Origin: Gammaproteobacteria bacterium
Lineage (GTDB): Bacteria; Pseudomonadota; Gammaproteobacteria; Pseudomonadales; Azotimanducaceae
Length of the DNA: 64,000 nucleotides
Direction: 5' to 3'
NCBI GenBank assembly: GCA_005799745.1
Contig: SYFY01000187.1
Location: 25,678 to 89,677, forward strand
This document shows positions 5,997 to 54,163 of this stretch, piece after piece. Each line of letters starts with the position of its first letter. Position 1 is the first letter of the stretch. The notes under the pieces are model-generated. The model was not told where the DNA came from, ran no database searches, and saw nothing but the letters and a program-made list of their open reading frames with translations. A program made the translations under genes and the position numbers.

Positions 5997-7190
5997 ATGG
6001 CAGGAGAAACGATGGCACGTGATGCACTGATCGCGATGACGAAACGGGAAATCGAGAACCTCGAGAAGAACCGTATCGACCTCGCTCCGGACGTCATGAA
6101 GATCTCAACGAGCGCCTACAGTGACCCTGAGCGCTTCAAGCTGGAAGTCGACCGCATCTTCAGGCGTGTGCCGCTTGCCCTCGGTTTTTCCAGTGAATTC
6201 CGTAACCCCGGTGACTATCGCGCACTGACCGTTGCCGGTATGCCCGTGATCATCGTCCGTGGTGCGGATGGTGAACTGCGCGCCTTTGTGAACATGTGTA
6301 GCCATCGCGGCAACTTTGTCATCGAAGAAGGTTCGGGCAATACCCGTCGCTTCCGCTGCAACTACCATGCATGGACGTACACCACGGAAGGGCGCCTGTT
6401 TGGTGTATTTGAAGAGTCCAATTTTGGTTGTGTGAACAAGGCCGAACTCGGACTCACACCCTTGCCGATCGCCGAGCGTGCGGGGCTGGTCTGGGTGACC
6501 CTCAATCCTGAATCGACCCTCGATATCGACCTTTTTCTCGATGGCTATGGCGAAATTCTCGAACACCTGCGCATCGATGACGCGTTTCTGGCCGATCAAC
6601 ACTGTCTGAATGGTCCCAACTGGAAGGTCGCCTATGACGGTTATCGGGACTTCTATCATGTACCGATACTGCATCGACAATCCTTTGGTCCTGATGGTCC
6701 GTATCAACCCGACTTCTACGCCTGGGGACCGCATGTGCGTGTCGCAACCCCGAAAGGCCACGACATGTTTAAGGGGCGACCGGAAGCGGAGTGGACGAAT
6801 GATGAAATGATGCCGGGGGTGTGGACGATCTTCCCGAACGTTTCCATCGCGGGCGGTCCCGGATCGGGTTACATGTTCTCGATGATGTTTCCGGGTAAAA
6901 CCGTCGGCGAGTCGTTCACCATCCAGAACTTCCTGCGCTACGGCAAACGCGAAGAACTGAATCGTCAGGATCTCGATAACTTCATGGGGTTCATGCGCAC
7001 GGTCGTCGGCGAAGAGGATTACAAAACCGGCTTCCGGGTGCAGACATCACTCGCTACCGGTGCCAAAGCGTTTTCATACTTTGGTCGCAACGAAGGTGGC
7101 GGCCAGTTGTTTCACAAGTGGGTCGACGCGATGATCAATACGTCCGACGCCGATTTGCCCGAACTCTTCAGGCGTGGCGTGAAGCTTTGA
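5997..7190 (+). CDS. Rieske aromatic-ring-hydroxylating-type oxygenase alpha subunit (start may be 6012)
   Basis: 397 aa; CSHRGNFV...CNYHAWTYTTEGRL Rieske motif, DGYRDFYHVPILH iron site. Confidence 0.93.
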   Translation: MAGETMARDALIAMTKREIENLEKNRIDLAPDVMKISTSAYSDPERFKLEVDRIFRRVPLALGFSSEFRNPGDYRALTVAGMPVIIVRGADGELRAFVNMCSHRGNFVIEEGSGNTRRFRCNYHAWTYTTEGRLFGVFEESNFGCVNKAELGLTPLPIAERAGLVWVTLNPESTLDIDLFLDGYGEILEHLRIDDAFLADQHCLNGPNWKVAYDGYRDFYHVPILHRQSFGPDGPYQPDFYAWGPHVRVATPKGHDMFKGRPEAEWTNDEMMPGVWTIFPNVSIAGGPGSGYMFSMMFPGKTVGESFTIQNFLRYGKREELNRQDLDNFMGFMRTVVGEEDYKTGFRVQTSLATGAKAFSYFGRNEGGGQLFHKWVDAMINTSDADLPELFRRGVKL

Positions 7191-37253: not shown

Positions 37254-38465
37254 TTAAGCGCCGCGTTGGCCGAGAACCTCTTGGTAGGCAGTCTGCATTT
37301 CATCGAGCATGCGCGATTCTTCATAGTGCAGGAGGACCTGGTCACGGCCGAGACGACCGAGATCAACGAGACGATGGCGCTGGGTGTAAACGGTGGTCAG
37401 AACACTAACAAGGTGATCCACGTCACCGGACTGAAAGGTGCGAATCGTCGGACACAGTGAGGCGACCTCCCTGCAACCCGGCACATCCGCGACGATAGCG
37501 GGTACACCACACGCGATCGATTCCAGCACCACGTTCGGTGTGCCTTCGCAGAGCGAAGGTAACACCGTGACATCGCAGGCGCGATAGAGCGTTTCGGGAT
37601 CGTCGCGATGTCCGGTGGTGATCACTCGATCATCGAGCTTCAGCTCTGCAATCAACGATTCCAATCGTCCGAGCTCGAGTATTGAGCTTGCGCTGCCTCG
37701 CGCGACGGAGTCGCCGGCCAACAAGAGCTGCACATCGATTCCGCGTTGAATGAGTTGAGACGTCGCCTTCAGCAACACCGCATGGTTCTTGACCGGTTTA
37801 AAACTCGCAAACATGCCGATCAGTAACGTGTCCGGACCAACGCCGAGACCAGCGCGTACGGCTGTGCCTGAGCCCGGAGCGAATCGGCTCGAGTCGACAC
37901 CGTTGCGCACCACCCGATAACGTGCGCGCGCGCGGCGAAAGTGTGTGGAGTGTCAACGGAGACCTTCATCCGAATTGGCAATACAGGCCTTCATATTGGT
38001 AGTGCAGGACCGGTACAGAAAATCTTGCCACCACGCGTAATCGTGCCGGCTACTGCGTTCCGAACCGATCGCCACCGCACGAGGTAGAAGACGTACGGCG
38101 AGACAACAGAGAATTTCCGCATCGATCAAAAAACCATGCAAGACCTGCGTGTGGAGCCGTCGGGCGAGGCGGAAAAGGGCCCATGGAGATCGACCTGGCA
38201 ACAGATGAAGTCGACTCGGTTCGATGAGCGCTGAGGCGAGTGGAGCAAAGTTCGAAAAAATCGCGATGTGGACGTTATGTCCAAGCCGTGCCCATCCATT
38301 CGCCGGCATCAACACTTGGCGTTCAGCGCCACCAAAGCCGAGGTCACCGATCACAAGCAGCACATTGAGTGCGTCAGTGCGGTCAAAATTCTGATCGTTC
38401 GGCACACTTTCCGGCGTTTCCGGCTCGTTGGGTTGCACGTCAATCTGCAGCGTTGGGATACTCAC
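37254..38465 (-). pseudogene. glycosyltransferase family 4, interrupted by in-frame TGA at 37953-37955
   Basis: N-part LLVIGDLGFGGAERQVLMPANGWARLGHNVHI..., C-part MVRNGVDSSRF...LIGMFASFKPVKNHAVLL...SLCEGTPNVVLESIACGVPAIVADVPG; both in the same frame. Confidence 0.85.
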
Positions 38466-44945: not shown

Positions 44946-46457
44946 TTGAATCACAATAAGGGCAGCTTTTTTCACAGGCTCAAGCACGCGGCGGCATTGG
45001 CCGAGGCAAAAGCCGCACTTTTCCTAGAGAACGGCGAAAAAGTGACATACCGGATGCTCTTCGAAGCGGCGGGCCGGTACGCGTCAGTATTACGCCGATT
45101 GAGCGTGGCGAAAGGTGATCGGGTGGTCGTGCAGGTCGAAAAGTCGGCGGCCAACCTCGCGCTCTACCTTGGAACATTGCAGTGTGGTGGCGTCTATGTG
45201 CCACTCAACACCGCTTATACGCGAGAAGAGGTGGCTTACTTCTTGTCGGATGCGGACGCCGCGGTGTTCGTGTGTGGAGATGCAGTGCTAGCCCTGCAAT
45301 CTCGGTTCCCTAAGATTCGCTTTATGACCCTCGACAGGCAGGGCAATGGCTCCATCGCAACGCTTGCCGAAGCAGCCGACACTGATTCGGCAATCGAAGT
45401 GATTACGAAAACCGACCTTGCGGCCATCGTCTATACGTCGGGAACCACAGGTCGATCCAAAGGCGCCATGCTCAGCCACGCCAACCTCTCGTCTAACGCC
45501 GATGCGTTAATCGAAGCTTGGGGTTGGCAACCCGATGACGTATTGCTACACGCGCTCCCGGTGTTCCATGTACATGGGCTCTTTATCGCCTTGCACTGCG
45601 CGCTGCTGACCGGTACTCCCATGATCTGGTTACCAAAGTTTGTGGCGGAGCAGACGCTCGATCGACTCAAAGATGCCACCGTGTTGATGGGGGTGCCGAC
45701 GTTCTATACGCGTCTACTCGCAGAGCGCGAGTTGAACCGAGCGAGCGTCCAGCACATGCGACTTTTTATCTCAGGCTCGGCGCCACTCACACCGCAGACC
45801 TTTGCTGAGTTCGAGTCGCGCACCGGTTATCGGATTCTCGAACGTTACGGGATGAGCGAAACCATCATCAACACCACCAACCCGTTACACGGCGAACGGG
45901 TTCCCGGCACCGTAGGTTTTGCGTTGCCGGGTGTGGATGTGCACATCGCCGATCAAACAGGTAACCCGCTGCCCCACGGCGAAGTGGGCATGATCGAAGT
46001 GCGTGGACCCAACGTCTTCTCTGGTTACTGGCGTATGCAGGAAAAAACTCGCGATGAAATTCGAGCTGCGGGTTGGTTTATCACCGGTGACCTTGGAACT
46101 CAAACAGCCGACGGGCGGGTGAGTATCGTCGGCCGCGGCAAAGACTTGGTAATCTCCGGGGGATACAACGTGTATCCAAAGGAAATTGAAGAGGTGCTCG
46201 ATACGTTGCCGGGGATTCAGGAATCCGCAGTCATCGGTGTGCCACATCCTGATTTTGGTGAAGCCGTGGTCGCAGTACTGGTTTCTTCAGGAGGCGAGAT
46301 CAGACTCGAAGATCTCTCGGTGCATCTGACTGAGCGGTTGGCGAAATTCAAAGAGCCCAAGGCCGTTTTTTGTGTTCCTGAATTGCCACGCAATACCATG
46401 GGGAAAGTGCAGAAAAACCTGTTGCGAGATCGTTTCGTTGACACCTTTGTGAGTTAA
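44946..46457 (+). CDS. matB: malonyl-CoA synthetase-like AMP-dependent CoA ligase
   Basis: 503 aa; IVYTSGTTGRSKGAMLSHANLSSN, LERYGMSETIINTTNPLHGERVPGTVGFALPGVDV, PRNTMGKVQKNLLR. Confidence 0.85.
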   Translation: MNHNKGSFFHRLKHAAALAEAKAALFLENGEKVTYRMLFEAAGRYASVLRRLSVAKGDRVVVQVEKSAANLALYLGTLQCGGVYVPLNTAYTREEVAYFLSDADAAVFVCGDAVLALQSRFPKIRFMTLDRQGNGSIATLAEAADTDSAIEVITKTDLAAIVYTSGTTGRSKGAMLSHANLSSNADALIEAWGWQPDDVLLHALPVFHVHGLFIALHCALLTGTPMIWLPKFVAEQTLDRLKDATVLMGVPTFYTRLLAERELNRASVQHMRLFISGSAPLTPQTFAEFESRTGYRILERYGMSETIINTTNPLHGERVPGTVGFALPGVDVHIADQTGNPLPHGEVGMIEVRGPNVFSGYWRMQEKTRDEIRAAGWFITGDLGTQTADGRVSIVGRGKDLVISGGYNVYPKEIEEVLDTLPGIQESAVIGVPHPDFGEAVVAVLVSSGGEIRLEDLSVHLTERLAKFKEPKAVFCVPELPRNTMGKVQKNLLRDRFVDTFVS

Positions 46458-46486
46458 CCCAGCCCAATCGCTTCGGCTGGGTTTTG
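46456..46486. terminator. Intrinsic terminator after matB-like gene
   Basis: AACCCAGCC-N10-GGCTGGGTT followed by TTG. Confidence 0.7.
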
Positions 46487-46550
46487 CCTCTACGGACGCC
46501 TCACCCACGGCGTATGTCCGCTGCCAAACTCTTGCGAACGTCCCGTCGCA

Positions 46551-49500
46551 CTAGGCCGCGGGATGCTCCTCGAGCGAAGTAATGAGCTCGGATGACACCC
46601 GGCCACGAAGCTCACGCCAATTCGCGTGATAGAACTCGAGTAAGGCTTCACGGATCGCTCCACTCGCGCTCGAATGTTGCTCGGACACTTGGCACGCAAC
46701 TCGATCTAAATGAGTCGGCAGTTCCATGATCTGCCGCCATGTACTGGAACCTGCTCCGGAGTGGAGCGCTGTGTTCGCGACTTCCGCGACCTTGTTGTGC
46801 AGCACAAGACCGTCTTCGGTCCCGCTCGTTACGACCCGGTAAATTTCGTCGGCAAGTGGATCGGGTTCTCCGTCCTGCATTTGCGCGAGAAGATCGCCGA
46901 AAGTGGACGATTTCTCGGCGAACAACTTTTGTAATCTGTTGATGTAAGGCTCTGGATTGATTCCTGCTTCGACGAGCCATCGCGTCGAGAAGGCGGCAAT
47001 AAATGCCATCTCTTCGAGCGACCCTCGATCATGCTCGAGGAACCACGTTCGGCGAGCACCCGCGCTACCACGGTGCTCCCGCTTCCAGCGCCATCGACCA
47101 TTGCAGACATGTTGAGCGAGTTTGAACGCTGCAAACAACTTCTCAATTTCGCCTGTGAGGTCCGCATAACCCATGCGTGGCATCGACTGAACGAATGAAC
47201 GAAACGCAGCAGGATTGTTCTGCGCTTGCAACAATCCAACGACGATATCCCGGAGCCTTCGATCCGTCGGGCGACGTTTTTCGATCCACGCGACCGTCGA
47301 ATTGACGTGACGATTGATCAACAGGGAGCCATCTCGCTAATGCGGATTACCCAGAGGGGTGCCGAGTTCGAGCAGGGCGTGCAGCACACGTGAGTCCAAC
47401 TGACGAGCATCCAGATCCGAGATCTGCTTGAGCCGCTCTTGGGCTGCTTGCTCCTGAAGTTCTCCGGACTCCGTGAGGTACACTCCGAATGCATGATAGA
47501 GCGAGAGGCAGCCGAGTACTTCTGAAGCAAAGTTTGAGAGTACAAGGTCATCGCGGGCGATGACCTTGGCAACAGCGCCTACTCTAACCAGATGTTCAAC
47601 CAGCCTGGGATCTTCTGCCTGCTTATGTACAAAAAGTTCGAAGTCAGAAGGCGCGAGCGAGGGTAACTGGTCGTTGGTAACTCTCTATCCATGACGTGTT
47701 CGTTCGATGCTCAGGGGCTCATCAAAGTTGTATGCAAACACCAAGCCGAAACCACAACGACTTCTGGTGTTAGGGCTGCGCTCGACAAACGTCGTTGGGC
47801 TTGAGTTGATGGCCCGCGGTCCACCCGCAACAAAAGCTTCATAGTCTTTCGATCCGAGGAAGAGTCTGTACAGACTCGGCAGGTGCGGCACATCGGCTAG
47901 CTTCATGATGACCGTCGTGTTGGTCACTGCGTTGTCGATGACTACAAAACCCTCAAGCCCATAGACCTCGACCGGCAGTTCATCAGAGATGATGAGATTG
48001 TTACCGCAGGCGACCAGCTTGACTTGCTCCGGCGTGCCGACACAGATGTTACTGTGCCCTCGGTCGTACAACGGGTGCCCACGGTAGAACTGCATCATGT
48101 TCTGCCCGGGAATCCCGAAGTCCTCGAATCGAACACCAGGGTCCATCAACGCGGTTGCGACCCGAACGCTGTCCTGGGTTTGTGCACCCCATGGTGCCGC
48201 CTTGCACAACAGGTGTTCCGCCAGGTTTCCGGATTCCGCTTCCATGGGAACGACGCTTCGAAAATACTGTTCCTTGAAGATCACGCACCCGGATTCCCAC
48301 GCTAGATCACCAGGTGACGCCATCAAGTCATCGAATGTCGCGACGTCGGGTTTTTCAGCGAACCGTTCAACTTCAAAAGTTCTGTAGCCATCGATCTGCC
48401 TTCGATACTTTGCATGCCCGAACCGTTCATCACGAGCCGTGCCCCAAGGCACTTGGCGCCCGACGCTGATGAGTACATCGTTTTCTCTGGCGGTAATCAG
48501 AGCGGACACCAGTGCGGACTGGAATCGGTGATAGGGTTCAACCACGTTGTCGGCCATGCTGACAACAACAAGGCGGTTTTCTGGTTTTCCGGCGATCGGC
48601 ATCCCTGCACAGGCGAGATTCACCGCTGGAACGGTGCCTTTTGGAACTAACTCAAGTACGCAGTTTTCTGCAGGGATTCCTTCTTGCGACGCCTGTTCGA
48701 TCACCTGGCTGAGTGCGTTTCGGCTGCAGAGAATATAAATACGTGAGGAGGGGACCAACAGGTCGTGGCGGAAACGTCGGATCGTCTCCTGCAAAAGTGA
48801 TCGATCGCCGAGCAGTGACATGGACACCGGCTTTGGGCGATTTTCACAAGAAATTGGCCAGACTCTCGATCCGATACCACCTGCAAGAATCGCCACACAG
48901 GAATTGCTGACAAGCCAGGACACGTAGTACTTATGTAAACCGCGCAAGCAGAACATCTGGGTCCAATAGCTTCGAGTATCAGCGACTTCTCTTCCTCCGA
49001 CTGGTTTTTCGAAGAAGCCGTACCTGTACCAACCTGGTGCACCTTCACGCTGTGCGAGAACTCTGCCTGCAAGGTCGTCCAGCAACCCATCGAGGGAAAA
49101 GTCGAGTTGCTCCAAATGTCTCAGATCTGATCCAAGGGCTAGAACTTGGGCTAGCGCGTCTGTTCGAAAACGGGATGACGGTTGACCTGACGGGAATTCG
49201 AAGCTCTGCGGTATCTCGCCATTGTTGCATTGACGGAGCGCCCATTCGGTCGCGCGCTTCGCAGCATCAACGAAACGCTGCTCGCCGGTCATTCTGCCAA
49301 CATGCAGGAATCCCTCCGTCGCGTAACAGTGCGGATGCAGCTCAGTACGCCCGTTAGACTTTTGAATCGCCCCGTTATCTCCCACAAACTTCAGCGCGGC
49401 ATCACAGATGCGGACTGCGTAATCGCGATATCGACCACTTCCTGCGACCTCATCGAGGTCCACAAACGCCTCGGCTACTTTGGTAAGAAACGTACCAAAG

Positions 49501-50039
49501 GCTCGCGACCAGACGTTAGTGTCTGCAGGTACAGGCGTTCCTTAGCGGGCATCAAAAATCGCGTGGACTTCACCGTTTGCATCGATCATCGAATCGATCA
49601 TGAACTCAGCCATTCGAACTGCCGAATCGAGATAGGACGCTGTACCCAGCGTTCGATACGCCGCGACCATTCCACGCACACAGATCCCCGTATCAAACGC
49701 GTAAATGCGGCGCCCGGAGAAGGAGGTGTAGGCCAGTTCAGGGCGAGTGTCGTGTTCGAAATAAAATCGGGTCAGTATTCCCCCAGTGCTGTCCTGTCCG
49801 TGATCACGGATCCAGTCGGCACTCCTGGCCATGAGCTGCAGATAGCGAGCATCTCCAGTCAATGAATGAAGGGTGAGAAAATCGAGAAGTGCATATCCGG
49901 TGACTTCGGTAAAAAGAAACCGTGGAGCACCGTCCTGCCTCCCGGGTTCGAGAACACCACCGGTTTCAGCGTCGAAAAACTGATCAAGTGCTGCTTCGTA
50001 GTCGACCAGCACGTCCTTTTGAAAATTGGTAATCAACAC
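46551..50039 (-). pseudogene. Long single-frame ORF with in-frame stops: alpha/alpha-barrel (AGE-like) domain, mannose-1-phosphate guanylyltransferase domain, uncharacterised C-terminal region
   Basis: ORFs 49542..50123, 47685..49463, a start-less segment 47340..47684 and 46551..47321 are all in one frame, separated only by TAA 49542-49544, TAG 47685-47687, TAG 47337-47339. GMP motif VAILAGGIGSRVWPISCENRPKPVSMSLLGDRSLLQETIRRF. Probable GTG start at 50039 after AAGGA-type RBS. Confidence 0.75.
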
Positions 50040-50077
50040 GTCGCAATTTCCTTCAGAAGATGGACTCTTAAAACGGC

Positions 50078-51202
50078 TTACAGACCGTGGTGTTCGCGTA
50101 TCAGCCGGACTATTCGTGGGCATGCCTAGCCATCGCCATAAGGATTGTGAGCAAGGCTCATCTCCTTGTAGGCGGCGCTGTCATCAAGCAGTTTGGTCGC
50201 TTCGTCACAAATTCGATCTTCATTCGTTCCTACCAGGCGGACGGTTCCAGCGTCGACTGCTTCTGGACGCTCGGTTGTATCCCGCATGACGAGAACGGGT
50301 TTCCCCAATGCCGGAGCTTCCTCTTGCACCCCACCTGAATCGGTGATCAGAAAGTGACAGCGTTTCATAAGGTAGACGAAGGGCAGGTAGTCCTGCGGGT
50401 CAATCAGAAAAACGTTCGATCGATTGCCAAGGATCTCCCGTACGGGAGCCTGCACATTGGGGTTAAGGTGTACTGGGTAGACGACCTACACATCACCGCG
50501 CTCTGCAATTCGGGCCAAAGCGTGACAAATCCGTTCGAACCCGCCGCCGAAACACTCTCGGCGATGACCCGTAACAAGAATCATCCGATGTTAGGCGTCG
50601 AGGAACGAAAACTGCTGGCTGAATTTCATTTGAGTTGCGAGATCTTCGTTCAGCCGAGTGGAAACCTGCAGTAGTGTGTCGATGACAGTGTTTCCGGTTA
50701 CATGGATCGAGTCGATACGCTTGCCTTCACGGAGCAGGTTCTGACGAGCCCCTTCAGTCGGGGCGAAATGTAGATCGGCGATCGATCCAGCGACCATACG
50801 ATTGATCTCTTCGGGCCACGGCGAATAGATGTTTCCAGTACGCAGACCGGCTTCGACATGCCCCACGGGAATTCGCTCAAAGTAGGCTGCGAGCGCGGTA
50901 GATAGCGTGGTCGCAGTATCGCCATGAACCAGGACTCGGTCGAGTCGATAATCGCGTAGTACGTCCCGTAAGCCACGCAAAACACCACAGGTGATGTCTG
51001 TTAAATCCTGCCCGGCAGACATCAGGTTTAGATCATAGTGCGGTTCGATGTGAAACAGTCGAAGCACCTAGTCGAGCATGTCCCGATGCTGGGCAGTCAC
51101 ACAAACTTTGGATTCAATACCGGGCGCTGCGTCGAATGCTTGTACCAGCGGAGCCATCTTGATTGCTTCAGGCCGCGTCCCGAATACCGTGAGGAGTTTC
51201 AT
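50078..51202 (-). pseudogene. wecB: UDP-N-acetylglucosamine 2-epimerase (non-hydrolysing) with four in-frame stops
   Basis: [60 protein letters not shown]...VLVHGDTATTLSTALAAYFERIPVGHVEAGLRTG...[16 protein letters not shown]...[16 protein letters not shown]...[30 protein letters not shown]...[23 protein letters not shown]. Confidence 0.92.
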
Positions 51203-52521
51203 GCTGTTACTCTTCTCTTCAGTGCATCCGCCAGCGTCGAAGCGATGTTTCTATTGCACTGTTCGATGTAGCGGATGGAGCCTTCAGTGACTGCGGTTCG
51301 GTGTGAGTCATCAACTAGAAGTCCAATACACCGCAAAGCGAAATCCGTCGGTGAATCAGCGGCTTCGAATGCCGTTCCAATGCCCGCTTCCATGCCTTCG
51401 GTGCCAACGGTCGCCGTCACCAGCGGCTTTCCGAAGCCAAGCGCTTCGAGGTTTTTGATGCTCAAACCCGTGTTAAACAGCACCGGATTGACTATGACTT
51501 GGGCATGCTGGTACGCGGACTGCAAATCATCGACACGGCCCAGCTTGATGACTCCGGAGTGCTCGTCGACCGCCTTGCAGATCGAGCCGGCCAAACAAAG
51601 ATAGGCACTCGGTACCTGGGCACGAATGAGAGGTAGTGCCTCCCGAATAAACGTTTGTATGCCATGCACGTTTATGGAGTTGTCCGAGGCCACAAACAAC
51701 ATCCGGCCCGGAATCGCAAGTTTGCCATCCAGGAAATTCAGCGGAGTCATGTGCGAGAGCGTCACCACCGGCGTACGGGTCATCCGGCTGAATACTTCGC
51801 GTTCCTTCTCCTGAATCGCAAAAACCAGATCTGCTCGATCAAACGCCATTTTTTCTCCTGCTTCCGAGGTCGAAAACCGGGCAGGTATTTCTCCGCGCGC
51901 AAGATATTGGCGGTACCTGTTTGCGAACGCGTCGTGAGTGTCAATGATCCGCAAGACGTCCGGACCGAAAAGCGTGAGCACTTGTGAGAAAAAAACGTAG
52001 CTACAAATGACTACGTCGAATCGATGTTCGCCCTGCAGCCGAGTAACAACGCCATCGAGGTTGGAGTCATACCACTCGTCGATATCGAGGCCATACCGGT
52101 GGTCCGAAGAGAAGTAACCCAAGAACTTTCTCTTCAATCGACGGTGCAATGGAACCCACGGCTCCTTCCAATCGACCGCGATGAATCGATCACCCCAACG
52201 TTTTCGCATTTCTGCTTCATCGCCGGCCTCCTGTCGAATAAACAAAAACCAGATGTCGTGACCTGATTCAGCGAGTGCTTCAAGCAACGATGCAACCCGG
52301 GTTCTATTGCCTGCCGTTTGAGGAACGGTTGGAATCGGGGAAACAAATAGAATGCGTTTGCTGGGCATGTCCCTATCGATGGAGTGAAGCCTGCGTAAAC
52401 GCAAGCGACCACCTTTGGGTAGGGGAACACATCGGTTCAGACCGGCGGTCGAATCTGAAAGGGTCTTGTTTGGCAGGCATCGCTGCGTCCGTGCTGGTTT
52501 TTTTCGATACAGGCCATCCAT
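51199..52521 (-). CDS. glycosyltransferase (GT4-like), intact; probable start MPSKR near 52371
   Basis: [39 protein letters not shown]...[40 protein letters not shown] overlap with wecB. Confidence 0.88.
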
Positions 52522-52807
52522 GGTATTTCAATTCGTCCCGTTCAGTCCGTGAGGCAATCGTGAATTGGCAACAGGCTTCGACTAGGGTGTCGTTAAGCGG
52601 CACACTCGCCCCGTATGAGGCGTACGGGATCCGATTCGAACGGACATCACATTTCAACCGAGAAAGTTCGGTAAGTTGTCCGGTACAGGGTGAACTTTTT
52701 TTTGGAATTCGTTGGGCGAACCGGTCGTCGACGGGTGATGCTGATGACATTGTGGGTGACAGTCACCACGCTGAACTTAATAAACAGTAAATTAACTAAT
52801 CTAGGGG

Positions 52808-54163
52808 ATGAGCTTGTCTTTTGAGTACGATCTCTTCGTGATAGGCGCGGGCAGCGGTGGGGTGCGTGCCAGCCGTATGTCAGCGCGTGCCGGTGCTCGC
52901 GTCGGTATTGCTGAATCAACGTTTCTGGGTGGGACGTGTGTGAACGTCGGTTGTGTACCCAAAAAACTCTTTGTTTATGGCGCTCAGTTTGCCGAAGAGT
53001 TTGATGACGCCGCGGGTTTTGGCTGGCTTGTCGGCGCACGTCAGTTCGATTGGGCGACGCTTCGGGACAACAAAACCAAAGAGATCGAACGTCTGAACGG
53101 TGTTTACCAAAACTTGTTGGTGAACGCAGGCGTCAAGATTCATCGAGGTGTCGCCCGGCTGTTGGACGCACACACCATCGAGATGGAAGGGCAGCGGATG
53201 ACTGCTGACAACATCCTCATCGCTACGGGATCAAGCCCTTACGCGCCTTCATTTCCTGGCGACGAACACACCATCACATCAACGGATGTGTTTTACCTCC
53301 CGAACTTTCCACGGCATGCGATCATCGTCGGCGGTGGCTATATCGCCGTGGAATTCGCCGGGATCTTCAACGGCCTCGGCGTTGAAAGCCATCTTCTCTA
53401 TCGTGGTCCGTTGTTTCTGCGTGGCTTCGATGAAAGCGTGCGTGGGTTTGTTAAGGATGAACTTGAGCGCAAAGGCATCCATTTGCATTTCAACACCGAG
53501 ATCGCTTCCATTGAAGTGAACAGCGGACGGAAGCGGGTGCACTTCAAGGACGGTCAATCACTGGAGTCTGATCTCGTGTTACAAGCGACCGGTCGGCGAC
53601 CCAATACCTCAGGACTTGGGTTGGATGCTGCAGGCGTTCACTTGGGTGACCGTGGCGAAGTGGTTGTGGATGAGTTTTTCCGAACGTCAGTGCCCAATAT
53701 CTATGCGATCGGTGATGTGATTGATCGCATGCAGCTCACCCCCGTCGCCATCGCCGAAGGCATGTGTATCGCTCACAACCTGTTCGGTTCAGGTCCAAAA
53801 CGGAGTCTCGATTATCGGGATATTCCGACGGCCGTGTTCTGCCAGCCCAACATCGGTACAGTCGGCTTAACCGAAGCCCAAGCCGCCGCGAAAGGTCCTA
53901 TCAGCGTTTTTGAAACCAGTTTCCGCGCCATGAAACACACCTTGAGCGGCCGAGGTGAACGTACGTTCATGAAACTGATCGTGCGCAAGGCGGATGATCG
54001 AGTGGTTGGGGCGCACATGGTAGGTCCTGAAGCAGGCGAGATCATTCAGGGCCTCGCCGTGGCTATCAAGGCGGGAGCGACCAAGGCACAGTTTGATGCG
54101 ACGGTCGGTATTCATCCAACAGCAGCTGAAGAATTCGTAACCATGCGGGAAGCGACACGATGA
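52808..54163 (+). CDS. gor: glutathione-disulfide reductase
   Basis: 451 aa; [56 protein letters not shown]. Confidence 0.92.

Follow-up and report, generated by a model that had tools for sequence, protein, structure and literature searches.

The wecB gene (UDP-GlcNAc 2-epimerase) of this uncultured bacterium and the operon to which it belongs very probably form a polysaccharide operon that is laterally variable and has been inactivated recently, i.e., a young pseudo-operon, located in the window (the whole stretch of 64,000 nucleotides of DNA that was analysed). In-frame stops cut wecB and spread over the operon, the corresponding site is empty in a sister species, and similar pseudogenes occur elsewhere in the genome; a young pseudo-operon explains the spread of the stops, the empty site, and the other pseudogenes, and it is therefore favoured. 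wecB appears to be an ordinary broken gene rather than a case of new stop reading because its neighbours are cut as well, all three stop types and frameshifts occur in the genome, and no suppressor tRNA was found. Among the four options listed by an earlier sequence-only reading, recent inactivation is the best supported. In the proposed course of events, a cluster of ~6 kb (glycosyltransferase, wecB, epimerase-like/nucleotidyltransferase gene, and an unknown gene) would reside in this species alone, flanked by two core genes, would have lost its function, and would then have gathered further point nonsense mutations; translation would halt at the first stop, with no read-through, and would reduce WecB to a 44-residue fragment.

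Four stops in the wecB frame

Frame reading confirms both the single frame with its four stops and the lack of frameshifts in wecB that the sequence-only reading had described (Table 1). Read through its stops, the product is assigned to WecB by NCBIfam TIGR00236 over the full length (518.8 bits; curated cut-off, 210.15 bits) and shares 60-67% identity with its intact relatives, in comparison with which the frame is disrupted. When the residues at the stop sites are scored against 86 relatives, the earlier claim that three of the stops lie at Gln sites stands for codon 45, which is invariant, and for codon 239, which is mostly Gln, and falls for the third site; as such, it would hold at most against single sequences.

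Table 1. Operon, internal stops, insertion, and flanking genes (positions in the window)
Feature	Positions	Strand	Remarks
Malonyl-CoA synthase (left flank)	44946..46457	plus	intact
Accessory insertion containing the operon	46458..52807		
Last operon gene	46551..47684	minus	one internal TAG; no Pfam or NCBIfam match
In-frame TAG in the last operon gene	47337..47339	minus	
Alpha/alpha-barrel plus nucleotidyltransferase gene, directly after wecB	47685..50039	minus	one internal TAA
TAG between the operon gene after wecB and the last gene	47685..47687	minus	one frame
In-frame TAA in the gene directly after wecB	49542..49544	minus	
wecB (UDP-GlcNAc 2-epimerase) frame	50078..51202	minus	single frame, ATG 51202 to TAA 50078, 374 codons, four internal stops; frame reading and TIGR00236
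In-frame TAG, wecB codon 359	50126..50128	minus	variable site: Lys 25, His 22, Gln 12 (86 relatives)
In-frame TAG, wecB codon 239	50486..50488	minus	Gln 57, Glu 25 (86 relatives)
In-frame TAA, wecB codon 204	50591..50593	minus	variable site: Asn 52, Gln 1 (86 relatives)
In-frame TAG, wecB codon 45	51068..51070	minus	Gln in 85/86 relatives
Glycosyltransferase, first operon gene	51199..52290	minus	no stops; start approximate
Glutathione reductase (right flank)	52808..54163	plus	intact

At 171 conserved columns, wecB departs from the family at 7, the same as intact WecB proteins of equal divergence; the motif HRRECFG, previously read as a hint of relaxed selection, is thus no such sign, and no missense excess is found at these columns. 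Four neutral nonsense changes predict ~40-48 missense changes at conserved columns, depending on the mutation spectrum, and the deficit has a nominal p of ~0.002-0.014 when the 4-7 observed deviations are counted as decay, a value weakened by the selection of wecB as the extreme case with the most stops. A missense excess may be lacking in a pseudogene that is very young, and the membership of wecB among pseudogenes is not thereby excluded. The missing missense load is an unexplained oddity and the sole feature that deserves a further look; it is not taken as evidence of read-through because the choice fell on wecB for its extremeness and because the majority of the other genes carry a single, possibly very recent change. 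In five other genes with stops, amino-acid change is no faster than in the sister (41 unique changes versus 56), and their single nonsense changes may simply be recent. A strand-specific burst of C-to-T changes was considered and rejected: if it had struck 4 of the 15 Gln codons, wecB should also carry many C-to-T missense changes, and such a load is not seen at its conserved columns; elsewhere, stops also derive from other substitutions (G to T, G to A, C to A, and C to G).

The same columns bear on two other sources of stacked stops. Sequencing or assembly error would be compatible with a metagenome-assembled genome of 218 contigs and 86% completeness and with the isolated nonsense changes of diverse types (G to T and C to A among them) scattered in it, but nonsense makes up ~3% of random changes, and four such errors in 374 codons should be accompanied by far more than a hundred others, a number incompatible with the conserved columns; moreover, the flanking genes are clean, and error would not place several nonsense changes in a single operon and leave conserved residues untouched, making this origin very unlikely. 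A mosaic of null alleles, in which different single inactivating mutations from different cells of the population (favoured, for instance, where a surface polysaccharide is selected against) were joined by recombination or by the assembler, would account for several nonsense changes unaccompanied by missense changes, yet assemblers normally call whichever base is commoner at a site; such a mosaic is improbable.

The operon and its site of insertion

The glycosyltransferase gene ends with a TGA that overlaps the wecB ATG, and wecB is followed by a gene that joins an N-terminal alpha/alpha-barrel part (mannanase/epimerase-like, resembling alpha-1,6-mannanases) to a GMP/PMI-type nucleotidyltransferase part. 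In 299 genomes of the phylum, the nucleotidyltransferase part alone of this gene is matched, and the search of plasmids and viral contigs returned no relatives of it. The TAG that separates it from the last gene is followed by 68 codons devoid of ATG, GTG, or TTG and is possibly either a further internal stop or the sign of a lost start. Stops are present in three consecutive genes of the operon, all of them TAR, and no frameshift occurs in it; the damage that had been described for wecB only is real but extends further, as the downstream genes also carry in-frame stops. No Rfam element was found in the operon region.

In the sister species (G001, locus L178), ~140 bp separate the end of the malonyl-CoA synthase gene from the start of the glutathione reductase gene, against ~6.3 kb here. 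A DNA search of the relatives returned no copy of the operon, except for the core stretch of wecB in one family member; a short match (query 6272-6317), considered as an upstream repeat, actually belongs to the malonyl-CoA synthase gene, at its 3' end. Neighbouring genes of the same unit are disrupted and the unit is dispensable, as indicated by the empty site in the sister, in keeping with a pseudo-operon. The genome also harbours, on contig C212, a second WecB-like gene that is intact, belongs to another subgroup (34% identity to wecB), and is nearer to the G001 gene (55%). The sequence-only reading had named a second intact wecB, together with a dN/dS near 1 for the present copy, as the mark of an ordinary pseudogene: the intact gene exists, but it is of a different subgroup, and the missense excess is lacking.

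In-frame stops across the genome and the reading of UAG and UAA

In-frame stops were sampled over ~0.75 Mb of the genome, where long frames end with TGA in 218 cases, TAA in 55, and TAG in 52 (TAA/TAG, 107/325). Such stops are confined to a few genes, since family scans find them inside none of the 104 short-chain dehydrogenase matches, none of the 42 ABC-ATPase matches, and 2 of the 30 acyl-CoA synthetase matches (one with three TAGs, the other with one TAA). Taken alone, codon-usage scans do not separate true internal stops from the natural ends of genes, and they served solely to suggest candidates.

The acyl-CoA synthetase gene with three TAGs (contig C117) looks like wecB and is proven to be a pseudogene because a mobile repeat of ~190 bp splits it; without the insert and the stops, it retains ~82% identity to its sister orthologue. 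The repeat (L180:7362-7551) contains palindromic parts, leaves the frame unbroken, and recalls the in-frame palindromic elements of Rickettsia; at least 10 other copies are present in the stretches read, and copies are 92-97% identical across the genome and weaker in G001.

Sister-species orthologues carry Gln, Glu, Trp, Tyr, Ser, or Asn at the positions of the stops, mostly encoded by sense codons one base away from a stop, and the same genes of G001 contain stops of their own at other positions, a TGA at Trp among them. Over ~32,000 residues aligned with G001 (mean identity 81%), TAG, TAA, and TGA all interrupt coding frames and frameshifts affect some of the stop-bearing genes, in contigs picked for such genes and, hence, with counts that do not give an unbiased rate. 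Examples are a histidine kinase gene with a TAA and a frameshift (L187), a gene with a TAG and a frameshift (L191:8167-10376), and a TGA at Trp (L191:16054).

Other broken or unusual frames were observed. A GGDEF-EAL gene has a TAG in this genome (L168:6063) and a TAA, a TAG, and a frameshift in G001 (L243), i.e., different nonsense codons. The sensor gene at L185:10342 (plus strand), in which a PAS-like part is joined directly to the last part of an EAL domain and a TAG is also present, is a relic with a large internal deletion. Within the window, a family-4 glycosyltransferase gene (37254-38465, minus strand) is interrupted between its two domains by a TGA in frame (37953) and is probably another pseudogene. 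In two thioredoxin-like genes (L162:6878, plus strand; L186:383, minus strand), a TGA immediately follows Trp in a redox motif of the W-TGA-xxC type, and these TGAs are possible selenocysteine codons.

In cellular bacteria, the known changes of the genetic code are reassignments of UGA or of arginine codons. Four relatives in the genus have an intact RF1, and the present assembly has a partial one at a contig end. A class-I tRNA pattern for CTA/TTA anticodons, which excludes tRNAs with a long variable arm (class II), has no match in five genomes of the genus, two of which are 99% complete, while the same pattern did recover the Lys-TTT and Arg-TCT tRNAs. The window contains no suppressor tRNA; the present assembly lacks most tRNAs (17 matches are detectable, none of them a tRNA-Gln), and absence from it alone would mean little. 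A survey of genetic codes reports no UAA/UAG reassignment in cellular bacteria (PMC8629427).

Leaky or efficient nonsense suppression would imply that UAG/UAA, perhaps as Gln, is translated in the lineage, with stops tolerated in lowly expressed genes and proteins still under selection. The four nonsense codons of wecB that come with no missense excess, the exclusive use of TAR in the operon, the other genes that do not accelerate, and the private stops of G001 in the same genes all agree with it, but the sister residues are mixed rather than Gln, TGA stops and frameshifts are present, TAA/TAG terminate 107 of the 325 long frames, RF1 is intact in the relatives, no class-I CTA/TTA tRNA is found within the limits given above, and the survey speaks against reassignment; taken together, suppression is hardly probable. 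A milder form, in which weak natural read-through lets the genus tolerate internal UAG/UAA and protein-level selection persists on genes such as wecB in spite of several stops, is very unlikely. Insertion of Gln in particular, as suggested by the sequence-only reading, is rejected by the sister residues and by the TGA stops, besides the frameshifts and the presence of RF1, and correction at the transcript level, also suggested, finds no support in view of the same mixture of residues, TGA stops, and frameshifts.

Relation to known systems

The wecB pseudo-operon is a kind of thing already known. If ordinary, it is a matter of annotation, concerning an uncultured bacterium whose accessory operon for a polysaccharide is broken, and it serves mainly as a caution, as in-frame stops at Gln sites mimic recoding for as long as frameshifts, the other types of stop, and the genomes of sister species are left out of account. 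Compared with the non-hydrolysing epimerases of the WecB family (TIGR00236), the product is a full-length match when read through, but its gene contains four stops. The UAR-to-Gln codes of ciliates and the UAG-to-Gln code of phages resemble the present case in having TAG and TAA within frames, one of them at an invariant Gln; here, however, TAA/TAG still end genes, RF1 is kept, the sister residues are mixed, no suppressor tRNA was found, and a single site out of four in wecB is an invariant Gln. Young (“near-complete”) bacterial pseudogenes have been described (PMC13345370), and wecB is like them in being a full-length gene that is cut by in-frame stops, close to intact homologues, and accompanied by other broken genes, while it stands at an unusual end of this class, with four nonsense codons and neither a frameshift nor a visible missense load.
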